Origin: Candidatus Methylomirabilota bacterium
GTDB lineage: Bacteria; Methylomirabilota; Methylomirabilia; Rokubacteriales; CSP1-6
Direction of reading: 5' to 3'
NCBI GenBank assembly: GCA_035709005.1
Contig: DASTFB010000041.1
Span: 1-64,000 of the forward strand
Length of the DNA stretch: 64,000 nt
The position numbers and the translations under genes were made by a program. How positions within the stretch are numbered: position 1 is the first letter of the stretch; every line of letters starts with the position of its first letter. The notes beneath the pieces are model-generated. The model ran no database searches and had not been told where the DNA came from. It worked only from the letters and a program-made list of their open reading frames with translations. Below, in pieces: positions 11,027 to 59,545 of this stretch.

Positions 11027-11099
11027 GCTTGCGCCGGCTTTGCCGGCGCAAGCGATCATAGGGGGAGGCCTCGGAGGGGGCCGTCGAGGCCCCCTCCGA
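11027..11099. repeat. Composite palindromic repeat, inverted copy (etfB-etfA gap)
   Basis: Two perfect hairpins fill the gap. The first is gcttgcgccggc/gccggcgcaagc (11027-11053, 12-bp stem, ttt loop). The second is tcggagggggcc/ggccccctccga (11071-11099, 12-bp stem, 5-base loop). The reverse complement of about 11061-11100 matches 16393-16430 at all but one or two positions. It could act as a REP/BIME-like element or an attenuating hairpin between etfB and etfA. No T-tract follows, so a simple intrinsic terminator is unlikely. Confidence 0.75.
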
Positions 11100-11112
11100 T
11101 CAGGAGACGAAC

Positions 11113-12090
11113 ATGGCAGGCGCGTTCTGGTGCGTGGTCGAGGACGACCGCAGCGGCCGTCCCAAGAAGGTGATGTCCGAGGTGCTCGGCGAGGCCACCC
11201 GACTGGCGGGGGCCGCCGAGGCGGTCTGGCTCACCGACAAGGCCACGGACGAAGGCCTCAAGCAGCTTGGCGAGTGGGGCGCCGTGAAGATCTGGCTGCT
11301 CGAGCACGCGGACCTGGCGCCGTATCGAGGCGAGGTGTGGGTGCCGGTTCTGGAGGCGCTGGTCGAACGGGAGTCGCCCAAGGCCATCTTCGGCCCGGTG
11401 ACGAGCCGCCAGCGGGAGTTCCTCGCGCGTCTGGCCGCGCGCCTCGGCGTGGGCCTCGCCGCCGATTGCGTGGCCCTGGCGCTGGAGGGTGACCGCCTGG
11501 TCGCCACCCGTCCGGTCTACGCGGGCAAGCTGCTGAGCAAGGTGGCCTGGGCCAAGACGCCCTGGGTCGCCACGCTGCGTCCGAACGTGTTCCGCCCGGC
11601 CGACGCCCAGGCCGGACGCACGGCGTCCGTGGAGCGCCCCGCGCTGACGCTGCCGGCGGCACGGATGAAGCTCGTGGAGCGCCGCGAGGAGGTCTCCACG
11701 GGGCTGCCCGAGCTCACCGAGGCCGAGATCGTGCTCTCGGGCGGGCGGGGCATGAAGGGGCCGGAGAACTACGTGATCCTCGAGGAGCTGGGCGGCGTCA
11801 TCGGCGCCGCGGTCGGGGCCTCCCGGGCCGCTGTCGACGCGGGCTGGCGGCCCCATCGCTTCCAGATCGGCCAGACCGGCCGCACGATCTCGCCCAAGCT
11901 CTACATGGGGTTCGGCGTGTCCGGCGCCATCCAGCACCTGGCCGGGATGCGGACGTCCAAAGTGATCGTCGCCGTCAACAAGGATCCCGAGGCGCCCATC
12001 TTCAAGATCGCCGATTACGGGATCGTGGCCGACCTCTTCGAGGTCGTGCCTCACCTGACGCAGGAATTCAAGAAGCTGCTGGAGAAGTGA
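11113..12090 (+). CDS. etfA: Electron transfer flavoprotein alpha subunit
   Basis: A 325-residue ETF large subunit. The C-terminal FAD domain shows [14 protein letters not shown], then [31 protein letters not shown] and [19 protein letters not shown], the standard EtfA/FixB signature. It binds FAD and pairs with EtfB upstream, separated only by the palindromic repeat. The stop overlaps the start of the acyl-CoA dehydrogenase gene (tgatg), so expression is coupled to its electron donor. Confidence 0.95.
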
Positions 12091-56607: not shown

Positions 56608-56653
56608 CCTCCGCAGTTGCTACGGCGGGGCCGGACTGACAGAATAGGCTGGC

Positions 56654-59545
56654 ATGGCCAGCGACCGCATCGTCATTCGCGGCGCCCGCGAGCACAATCT
56701 CAAGAACATCGATCTCGAAATCCCTCGCGACCAGCTCGTGGTCGTCACCGGGCTGAGCGGCTCCGGCAAGTCCACGCTGGCCTTCGACACCATCTACGCC
56801 GAGGGCCAGCGGCGCTACGTGGAATCACTCTCGGCATATGCGCGGCAGTTCCTCGAGCAGATGGAGAAGCCGGAGGTCGACTCCATCGAGGGCCTGTCCC
56901 CGGCCATCTCCATCGAGCAGAAGACCACCTCGCGCAACCCGCGGTCCACGGTGGGGACGGTCACCGAGATCTACGATTACCTGAGAGTGCTGTTCGCCCG
57001 CATCGGCGTCCCGCACTGCCCGCAGTGCGGCCGCGTCATCTCCGCGCAGACCGTCCAGCAGATGGTCGACCGGGTCCTGGCCATGCCCGCGGGGACGCGT
57101 CTGCTCGTCCTGGCCCCGGTCGTGCGGGGCCGCAAGGGCGAGTACAAGAAGCTCTTCTTCGATCTGCGCCGGCAAGGCTTCACGCGCGTGCGCGTCAACG
57201 GCCAGGTGCGCGGGCTCGACGAGGAGATTGACCTGGACAAGAAGCGCAAGCACACGATCGAGGTGATCGTCGACCGCCTCGTCGTGCGGGACACCCTCGG
57301 CTCCCGCCTGGCCGACTCCCTGGAAACCGCCCTCCGCCTCGCCGACGGAGTAGTAATAATCGAGCCTGTTGAAACTCCAACCGGTGTCGCATCTCACGCA
57401 AACGGGGAGGGTTTGAGAGGGGGCGTCTCGCCCCCTCCCAAGCTAAAGTCAGCCTCGGGAGCTACCGCCGGGTTCGCCCCCCTCGTGTTCTCCGAACGGC
57501 TGGCCTGCGCCGAGTGCGGCGTGTCCCTGCCCGAAGTGTCGCCGCGGATGTTCTCGTTCAACAGCCCCTTCGGGGCCTGCGACAAGTGCGCCGGGCTGGG
57601 AACCCGGTGGGAGATCGATCCCGACCGGCTGGTGCCCGACCCGAAACGCTCGCTCCGGCAGGGCGCGCTGGCGCCGTGGGCGAACCGGGAGTCGCCGCAC
57701 TTCAAGCAGACGCTCCAGGTGCTGGCCAGGCGGTATCACTTTTCCCTGGACACGCCCTGGCAGGCGCTCAAGCGCGGAGTTCGGGACGTCATCCTCCACG
57801 GCGATCGGGATACGGGGTTCGAGGGTGTGGTGGCGATGCTGGAGCGCCGGTACCGCGAGACCGACGCCGACGACGCCCGTCAGGACATCGCCGTGTTCAT
57901 GGCCGAGCGCTCGTGCCCGGGGTGCAACGGCAGCCGCCTGCGGCGGGAGTCGCTCGGCATCAAGATCGCGGGACGGTCCATCGCCGACGTGGTCCGGCTC
58001 ACCATCAAGGCGGCCGCCGCCTTCTTCGCCGGGCTGTCCCTCACGCCGCGCGAGGCCCTCATCGGCCGCCGGGTGCTGAAGGAGATCCGCGAGCGCCTCG
58101 GCTTCCTCCAGGATGTCGGCCTCGACTACCTCACGCTGGACCGGTCGGCGGGCACACTGGCCGGCGGGGAAGGCCAGCGGATCCGTCTGGCCACCCAGAT
58201 CGGCTCCAGCCTGGTGGGCGTGCTCTACATCCTCGACGAGCCCTCGATCGGGCTGCACCAGCGCGACAACCGGCGGCTGCTCGACACCCTCAAGCGCCTG
58301 CGCGATCTGGGCAACACGGTGCTGGTGGTCGAGCACGACGAGGAGACGATCCGCTCCGCCGACTACGTGATTGATCTCGGGCCGGGGGCCGGCGAGCACG
58401 GCGGCCACGTGGTCGCTGCCGGCACGCCGGACGAGATCGTGGCCAACCCGGGCTCGCTCACCGGCCGGTATCTGTCGGGGGCGCTGCAGATCGCCGTGCC
58501 CGCCCAGCGCCGCAAGGGCAGCGGGGCCTTCCTGACCATCCACAACCCGCGCGAGCACAATCTCAAGGGCGGAGCCATGCGGATCCCGCTCGGCACCTTC
58601 ACCTGCGTGACCGGGGTATCGGGTTCGGGCAAATCCACGCTGGTCAACGACATCCTCTACCGGGCGCTGGCCCAGATGCTCCACCGGGCCCAGGAGCGGC
58701 CGGGCGCCCACGACCGGATCGAGGGGGCCCAGCACCTCGACAAGGTGGTCGACATCGACCAGTCACCCATCGGGCGGACGCCGCGCTCGAACCCGGCCAC
58801 GTACACCGGGGTCTTCACGTTCATCCGAGCGCTCTTCGCCCGCACGCCCGAGGCCCGCATGCGGGGCTACGCCCCCGGCCGCTTCTCGTTCAACGTCAAA
58901 GGCGGCCGCTGCGAGGCCTGTCAGGGCGACGGCCTGGTCAAGATCGAGATGCACTTCCTGCCCGACGTCTACGTGACGTGCGACGTGTGCAAGGGCCGGC
59001 GCTACAACCGCGAGACGCTGGACGTCCGCTACAAGGGCCGATCGGTGGCGGACGTGCTCGACATGACCGTCCGGGAGGCCCTGGAGTTCTTCGAGCCGGT
59101 GCCCGTGATCCGCGCCAAGCTCGTGACCCTGAACGACGTGGGCCTGGACTACATCCGGCTGGGCCAGTCGGCCACCACGCTCTCCGGCGGCGAGGCTCAG
59201 CGGGTCAAGCTGGCCACCGAGCTCAGCCGCCGGGCGACGGGCCGCACGCTGTACATCCTGGACGAGCCGACCACCGGCCTGCACTTCGCCGACATCGAGA
59301 AGCTCCTGGACGTGCTCAACCGCCTGGTCGACCAGGGCAACACCGTGGTGATCATCGAGCACAACCTGGACGTCATCAAGACCGCCGACTGGATCATCGA
59401 CCTGGGCCCCGAAGGTGGCGAGGACGGCGGCTGGCTGGTGGCCACCGGCACCCCGGAGGCCGTCGCCGGAGGCTCCGACCGCTCGCACACCGGCCAGTTC
59501 CTGAAGAAAGTCCTTCGAGCAGAGGCCTCGCCGGCGCAATCCTAG
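56654..59545 (+). CDS. uvrA: UvrA excinuclease ATPase subunit with an in-frame repeat insertion
   Basis: A 963-residue nucleotide-excision-repair damage sensor with two ABC modules: Walker [10 protein letters not shown] (33-41) and GVSGSGKST; signatures [16 protein letters not shown] and [15 protein letters not shown]. Zinc-site cysteines are at CPQC, CAEC with CDKC, CPGC, and CEAC with CDVC. Compared with ordinary UvrA there is an extra stretch of about 39 residues (238-276), between DGVVIIEPV and [13 protein letters not shown], encoded by a palindromic repeat. It falls just before the first zinc module, in a surface region that tolerates length change, so function is probably kept. Confidence 0.95.
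57365..57481. repeat. Repeat-like in-frame insertion within uvrA
   Basis: About 117 bases that are absent from typical uvrA. The core is a hairpin gagggggcg/cgccccctc (57417-57437, 9-bp stem, tct loop) like the first stem of the repeats at 11071, 16393 and 46481. Flanks (gttgaaactccaacc, aagctaaagtc) are less GC-rich than uvrA. It adds about 39 codons without a stop. Confidence 0.75.

Follow-up and report, generated by a model that had tools for sequence, protein, structure and literature searches.

The window considered here, a stretch of 64,000 nucleotides (contig DASTFB010000041.1) from a Candidatus Methylomirabilota bacterium, carries a composite palindromic repeat at several places, and the question it raises is what kind of element this repeat is and which enzyme distributed it. 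A first-pass annotation had likened it to repetitive extragenic palindromes (REP) and bacterial interspersed mosaic elements (BIME) mobilised by a REP-associated tyrosine transposase (RAYT). We find that the repeat is a member of a real family of composite hairpin elements, which extends over the order of Candidatus Rokubacteria, is similar to the miniature inverted-repeat transposable elements (MITEs), has ends of the IS1182 type of insertion sequence (IS) in several lineages and is represented in the host of the window by core remnants. Probably these repeats are non-autonomous, MITE-like elements of the order which insert at CTAG and possess IS1182-type ends.

In this reading a complete element would consist of CTAG, about 5 nt, hairpin 1 in one of its interchangeable types, a GGCCTCCCCCAGGA linker, hairpin 2, TCGAA, the right end TTACTCCGACACGCTC and a second CTAG. 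It would be inserted at CTAG, often at the TAG stop codon of a gene, with duplication of the 4 bp, and would be moved in trans by a DDE transposase of the IS1182 family. In the host genome the older copies would have lost their outer ends and kept their cores, and at fixed sites hairpin 1 would be replaced in blocks, either because its inner hairpin is lost or through conversion by copies elsewhere.

The two-hairpin core and its distribution

Thirty-five copies went into a covariance model of the core; 16 came from the host and 19 from relatives, and all of them match the model by construction. The blastn searches with the repeat unit of the window were independent of the model, whose E-values are rough. 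In the alignment of the 35 copies 98.3% of the cells in the 20 stem pairs were standard pairs, and both partners were changed in 21 pair cells, compared with 6.6 in shuffles. An example from hairpin 2 is GCGCCGGC/GCCGGCGC versus GCGCGGGC/GCCCGCGC. The compensation in the stems that the first-pass annotation had described was supported on this larger set of copies.

Hairpin 1 occurs in several types, which were labelled A to E in this analysis. Types A and B were defined by aligning copies of the host with those of relatives. Type A is GGGGGCC-TCGAC-GGCCCCC; in type B the same arms enclose GACACACAGG, a loop that is conserved, together with an inner hairpin, CGCGCCC-GGGCGCG. The species comparison supplied types C (GGGGGGCTTCGCCCCCC, in which TTCC forms a bulge), D (GGGGGCGGACGTTACGGCCCCC) and E (TCAGAGGGGGCCTCGCGGCCCCCTCC).

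The host genome comprises 4.59 Mb in 134 contigs and is 95% complete; for a gene of the window, the best relatives with a name belong to Candidatus Rokubacteria. A single 76-nt unit gave 61 local blastn matches in it, several of them being the two strands of one palindrome, while the covariance model, for which 16 of the 35 source sequences were host copies, detected 44 places at E <= 0.01. With the window unit at E <= 0.001, blastn matches were obtained in 26 of the 27 genomes of the order (all except G018) and in none of 13 genomes of the class that lie outside the order. The covariance model matched 59 of 60 order genomes, the exception being G084, and one of 35 outside the order (G052, a single match that may be due to contamination or transfer). 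Collections of 72,556 plasmid and 50,697 phage records yielded no match to the repeat, and a plasmid or phage origin was rejected.

The number of copies differed strongly between close relatives. In genus g19 the model counted 19, 1, 1, 1 and at least 50 copies and in genus g23 at least 50, 0 and at least 50, where a count of 50 means at least 50 because at most 50 candidates were scored per genome. Together with sites at which one genome has a copy and another has none, this bears out the active spreading that had been suspected. Since the copy number varies within genera and the range covers nearly all sampled genomes of the order, a spreading element fits better than a required function.

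Outer ends, CTAG target and IS1182

Complete elements, of about 100-140 bp, were recognised in the relatives; their left border is CTAG, in which TAG is in many cases a stop codon. The copies of G016 are much alike (left side CTAG-GWCAR-TCGGAGG, right side TCGAAGGGCATTACTCCGACACGCTC-CTAG, about 100 bp in total), and the elements of G026 are about 140 bp long, their right part being longer than in G016. The context of the copies was collected in a table of 170 rows, including two window copies that duplicate host loci; the CTAG counts refer to 165 copies, with duplicates removed, and the right-end counts to 168. CTAG was present within 14 nt to the left of hairpin 1 in 18 of 34 copies of G016, 11 of 20 of G026, 16 of 49 of the G012/G092 group and 7 of 33 of the other relatives, far above the background CTAG rates, which were 0.24-0.67% in these four groups and 0.13-0.67% with the host included. 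The right end was detected within 100 nt in 20/34, 6/20, 7/49 and 4/36 copies, respectively. Shuffled right-end motifs reached maxima of 7, 3, 3, 3 and 2 copies in 200 trials (G016, G026, G012/G092, other relatives and host, with a mean of 0.26 in G016), thus the right end exceeded every shuffled motif in four of the five copy groups.

The 4-mers flanking the elements were identical in 12 of the 62 rows in which both sides were readable from the pattern, compared with 4.84 expected from re-pairing, at the best of 99 offsets. The identical pairs include TA-containing 4-mers other than CTAG, namely CTAC/CTAC, TTAG/TTAG and GTAG/GTAG, which suggests a true target duplication of 4 bp. At one site, where G012 has a single CTAG with the stop codon of a gene, G092 contains an insertion between two CTAGs; with 44.6 bits, the inserted sequence is weak as a family variant.

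A candidate for the motor was found in the same order. The DUF772 transposase domain was present in 21 of 59 order genomes, and IS1182 matches over the cut-off of the family (NF033551) in 9 of 59. Elements that are bounded on each side by CTAG and carry inverted repeats of the GAGCGTGTCGGAGAAA type measure 1.54-1.77 kb and have a reading frame of 470-522 residues. Such elements are L313 (G082), L317 (G094), L318 (G070), L329 (G018), L330 (G081) and L357 (G076), and all six exceed the IS1182 cut-off; the L318 protein, which carries PF05598, PF13751 and PF01609, scored 361 bits against a cut-off of 270. When their 12 ends were compared with the right end of the G016 mini-element, a string set by eye from the G016 copies, 17-20 of 21 bases matched, CTAG included. 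Since the right end resembles the IS1182 terminal inverted repeat, the DDE transposase of this family is most likely the mover of the repeat in trans, as judged from these ends. The hairpin core gave no covariance-model match in the six IS1182 loci.

Other transposases were also considered. Those of the IS4/IS5 type (DDE_Tnp_1) and of the IS701 type (DDE_5), found in eight genomes, were rejected, because L253, L254 and L262, which are bounded by CTAG or TTAG, have ends unlike the repeat. L253, which corresponds to L316 on host contig C55, is a 1.47-kb insertion sequence that is bordered by TTAG on either side and has inverted repeats CAGCCCGTGGTGAA; the transposase it encodes scores under the IS1182 cut-off. 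A CTAG-flanked mini-element, which measures about 107 bp and has the inverted ends TGCCGTTCCAACT, was noticed in G092 at L210 (about 7226-7443, C169) and L197 (4933-5041, C174), once nested inside a composite repeat.

The position of the copies relative to genes is consistent with the proposed target. Genes were predicted with an in-house codon-usage script. Of 165 distinct copies, 148 lie at most half inside predicted genes, and 81 begin within 20 nt of a stop codon on the same strand, in 27 cases exactly 5 nt after it. This spacing would be expected if a TAG stop inside CTAG were the target. Among the near stop codons TAG made up 20 of 28 in G016 and G026, compared with 427 of 1371 called genes (p 2e-5), and 13 of 23 in G012/G092 (p 0.01). 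The share of TAG did not differ from the background in the other relatives (6 of 14) or in the host (3 of 16). The CTAG target would offer a reason for the copies directly behind TAG stop codons in several genomes.

Several results weigh against the proposed reading. Among the 29 host copies neither CTAG within 14 nt to the left of hairpin 1 nor the right end was present in a single case (0/29 for both), and only 37 of 168 copies overall have the right end. The duplication test depended on the choice of the best offset and one of its matches, CCCC/CCCC, is plainly due to chance; several long pairs are one base apart, CTAA/CTAG in L227 and L237 and CTAG/CTGG in L228. Another difference between G092 and G012 has a repeat of 8 bp, not 4, and could be a deletion. 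The left end agrees with the IS end in the inner 7 bases only (GTCGGAG). Finally, no IS1182 over the cut-off was detected in the host, which has two weaker matches, or in G016, G012, G092, G026 and G063, all of them rich in copies, and G003, G014 and G072 do have one, at loci which, as far as examined, were without these ends. In the copy-rich genomes without it the motor is thus now missing, has gone undetected in the drafts or is a different one.

The host copies with the core alone are read by us as older copies, which would have lost their outer ends. A scan of them for duplications gave weak matches only, and a k-mer enrichment of their right flanks for a hidden right end did not exceed shuffles. 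These host copies would thus be old, or have moved otherwise.

Alternative readings of the core

The last point leads to the alternative that has kept most ground, although we consider it doubtful: the core itself, from hairpin 1 to hairpin 2, would be mobile or copied, by an unnamed enzyme, by recombination or by template switching, and the IS1182-like ends would have been captured in some lineages only. Some of the results that count against the CTAG element speak for it. In the host copies (n=29) the column conservation is 76-97% over TCGAA and falls to 31-62% beyond it, and a filled and an empty site of G064 and G062 (about 89% identical) are separated by a core-only insertion without CTAG duplication. 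On the other hand, the excess of CTAG over the background and of the right end over the shuffled motifs speaks against such a history, and since the copies were found by their core, the search design itself favours copies that seem to have lost their ends.

The comparison of G012 and G092 bears on the same question, and the differences in hairpin 1 that it brought out also count for this alternative. These genomes are syntenic over three contig pairs, with long alignments mostly of 89-96% identity, and 21 of 27 copies of G092 and 22 of 25 of G012 have a counterpart in the other genome (at least 40 bits, both flanks placed); one of the three G012 exceptions has, on inspection, a type B copy in G092. 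From this list 19 shared-site pairs were chosen, with one partner per site and copies of at least 40 bits. In local alignments of up to 300 nt, 30 of their 38 flanks were at least 91% identical and the rest 73-88%. The automatic class of hairpin 1 differed at 9 of the 19 sites, once with 300 of 300 identical bases in the right flank; these classes are coarse, and by eye the sites 37482 (type E versus C) and 5179 would be added. In the pair G092_C137 20100 and G012_C40 30106 the linker, hairpin 2 and the right flank are identical and the difference is confined to the tip of hairpin 1.

These differences need not have one cause. The pair 8085/16150, which is in opposite orientation, may represent two insertions, and a B versus D difference may be a simple loss of the inner hairpin, thus not all nine class differences need conversion. 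Where A or E stands against C, the pattern resembles the replacement of a block. In five shared cores of the same type the identity was 93.4% (351 of 376 aligned bases, not counting 13 gap positions), about equal to that of most flanks, which indicates no special protection of the core. When genera are compared, the site behind the gene ending at 46479 contains type C and an extra hairpin in the window versus type A in L056. In a second genus (g4) the single syntenic pair recovered in the fetched stretches was a filled/empty pair without a swap.

Where the genes at 34579 and 35357 meet, gains are lineage-specific. Of 21 relatives 14 were comparable there: ten have a gene overlap of 3-7 bp, two a gap of 18-22 bp, and only L050 and L058 contain elements, of 124 and 94 bp. 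A further reading, which we put forward tentatively, is that the core is an inheritance unit of its own. At fixed chromosomal sites hairpin 1 would be overwritten as a cassette, through conversion or template switching among the dispersed copies, more quickly than the adjoining DNA changes, and the IS1182-type transposase would be just one vehicle among others to new gene ends. If such in-place swapping of hairpin modules is true, it would allow a very rapid concerted evolution of short bacterial palindromes to be measured. Large palindromic insertions of a second kind were observed by eye in several of the loci L055-L069, at places matching window positions 36295 and 43133; these insertions in Rokubacteria are intergenic, about 200 nt long and contain motifs such as GGACCCGTTCCC, GGCTGGGCTCCATCCGG and GGGTCTCACAGGGG.

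An element selected at gene ends for its RNA or DNA, such as a transcription terminator or a protector of mRNA 3' ends, appears improbable. It would agree with the very stable fold and the compensated stems, with the low number of copies between divergent genes (4/165, a count for which no random expectation was computed) and with the orientation in tandem gaps, where the hairpin-1 end is directed towards the upstream gene in 74 of 115 cases (74 versus 41, p 0.003). However, none of the 170 rows has four or more T within 9 nt after hairpin 2, no terminator-like match was obtained at the hairpins of two window copies, and the copy number ranging from zero to at least 50 inside one genus as well as the identity of the same-type cores, which does not exceed that of most flanks, do not point to such a function. 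A structured RNA of Rfam was rejected, as Rfam gave no match at gathering scores within the window.

Mobilisation of REP/BIME-type elements by RAYT, a Y1 tyrosine transposase, can practically be set aside, even though the repeats are palindromic, modular, mostly intergenic and mostly downstream of genes, a related hairpin lies inside uvrA, a gene for which sections of PMC3733652 report REPs in other species, and a Y1_Tnp domain (PF01797) occurs in six genomes of the order. This domain is absent from the host and from 21 of the 27 order genomes, the host included, and six of the genomes that lack it (G012, G014, G016, G022, G025 and G026) hold at least 50 copies each. The six that possess it have 49 (G006), 43 (G010), 28 (G020), 9 (G002), 1 (G009) and 1 (G018) copies; the first two are copy-rich, but with values of 1-49 the presence of Y1_Tnp does not follow the copy number. 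At the Y1 loci, one for each of the six genomes (a second match in G006 was left out), the repeat had no match at E <= 0.05. Nor is a CGTC tag constant, as 22 of 165 copies have CG in front of TCGGAG, and the left 4-mers vary around CTAG, which no host copy has. The CTAG target, the matching flank 4-mers and the IS1182-like right end together argue for a DDE transposase rather than Y1.

Copies in the window and comparison with known systems

A scan of the window with the covariance model returned the two type A copies, 46511-46587 and, weakly, 57356-57441 (31 bits, E 0.006), a fifth match being the opposite strand of the first. The features are collected in Table 1.

Table 1. Copies, remnants and a related insertion of the repeat in the window
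Feature	Position	Strand	Covariance-model score (bits)	Description
Type A complete core	16393-16465	+	91.2	12-bp and 8-bp perfect hairpins; hairpin 1 16393-16421, linker 16422-16438, hairpin 2 16439-16457, then TCGAACGG tail
Type A complete core	11023-11099	-	84	hairpin 1 11071-11099, hairpin 2 11031-11049
Composite copy	46481-46587	+	42.7	type C hairpin 46481-46508, extra GC hairpin 46510-46540, linker, hairpin 2 46561-46579, TCGAACGG tail; model match spans 46511-46587
Half type C hairpin, remnant	36304-36323	-		assigned by sequence, without model match; follows stop at 36295
Left half-stem of hairpin 1, remnant	50885-50895	+		assigned by sequence, without model match
In-frame uvrA insertion, about 33 residues	57368-57475	+		related hairpin inside at 57417-57437

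The two-hairpin order that the first-pass annotation had described was recovered at 16393-16465, and at 46481-46587 in a longer form with the extra hairpin; the inverted first module that it had placed at 11061-11099 proved to be part of a whole inverted copy with both hairpins. The linker of the 16393-16465 unit contains GACCTCCCCCAGGAG, and TCGAACGG comes after its hairpin 2. This copy overlaps the 3' end of the predicted open reading frame 15976-16476, and its RNA fold has -51.8 kcal/mol and a z value of -4.2. The copy at 11023-11099 is inverted with respect to the flanking genes and sits after a TAG stop (ends at 11017) and before a predicted start at 11113 (z -7.0). The composite copy begins just past the predicted gene end at 46479, with one base between (z -4.8).

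The weaker members fared differently. The fragment at 36304-36323 and the half-stem that had been given as 50885-50898 are remnants of the repeat in their sequence, the latter over 50885-50895, and both went unmatched by the model. L060 keeps a similar half-hairpin remnant at the junction corresponding to the former; the latter lies directly 3' of CTAG 50880-50883, which includes the TAG stop of gene 50233-50883. The hairpin in uvrA is related to the repeat, at the weak score given above. The insertion around it, which lies between about residue 239 and residue 274, has no counterpart in the alignment with the solved UvrA that matched best. The proposed tandem duplication of the second stem at 43212-43281 did not hold: this GC-rich tandem hairpin before the gene at 43288 has no match to the covariance model and was not counted as a member of the family. 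Several relatives have long palindromes at the corresponding junction.

Searches of the open literature that named Rokubacteria yielded no description of repeats, and a search there for a palindromic element together with IS1182 found nothing, although some papers mention IS1182 and MITEs together. A word search found no mention of Rokubacteria in the RepRanger paper (PMC12306157), and none of IS1182 or CTAG in a MITE review (PMC10969869). The repeat family described here runs through an order of uncultured bacteria, and the tyrosine-transposase reading is replaced by a testable link to IS1182.

Among the known systems, the small dispersed repeats of cyanobacteria and the rickettsial palindromic elements are small hairpin insertions which also occur inside genes. 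The present repeat can be likened to them by these properties only. With REP, BIME and REPIN elements, as characterised in sections of PMC3116915 and PMC3733652, it shares the palindromic and composite build, the high copy number and the mostly extragenic position downstream (3') of genes, as reported for REP families; palindromic repeats affect uvrA here too. It differs from the REP/RAYT system in having no link to Y1 and no constant GTAG/CGTC tag, and in having two unlike hairpins, matching target 4-mers and an IS1182-like right end. The likeness to the IS1182 family consists in this right end and in the CTAG target, full copies of the IS being present in the same order; unlike these, the mini-element has no transposase gene and contains a hairpin core that is absent from the six IS loci.

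The closest likeness is that to MITEs, a term applied to ERIC and NEMIS in passages of PMC3116915 and to RUP in a passage of PMC10969869. The repeat is, like these, short, non-coding and dispersed, with stable hairpins and, in part of the copies, with IS-like ends and matching target 4-mers. Compared by description only, it differs from ERIC, NEMIS and RUP in its order-wide range, its two strong internal hairpins and the interchangeable types of hairpin 1 at fixed sites, and from MITEs in favouring TAG stop codons in some genomes and in the many copies that consist of the core only.

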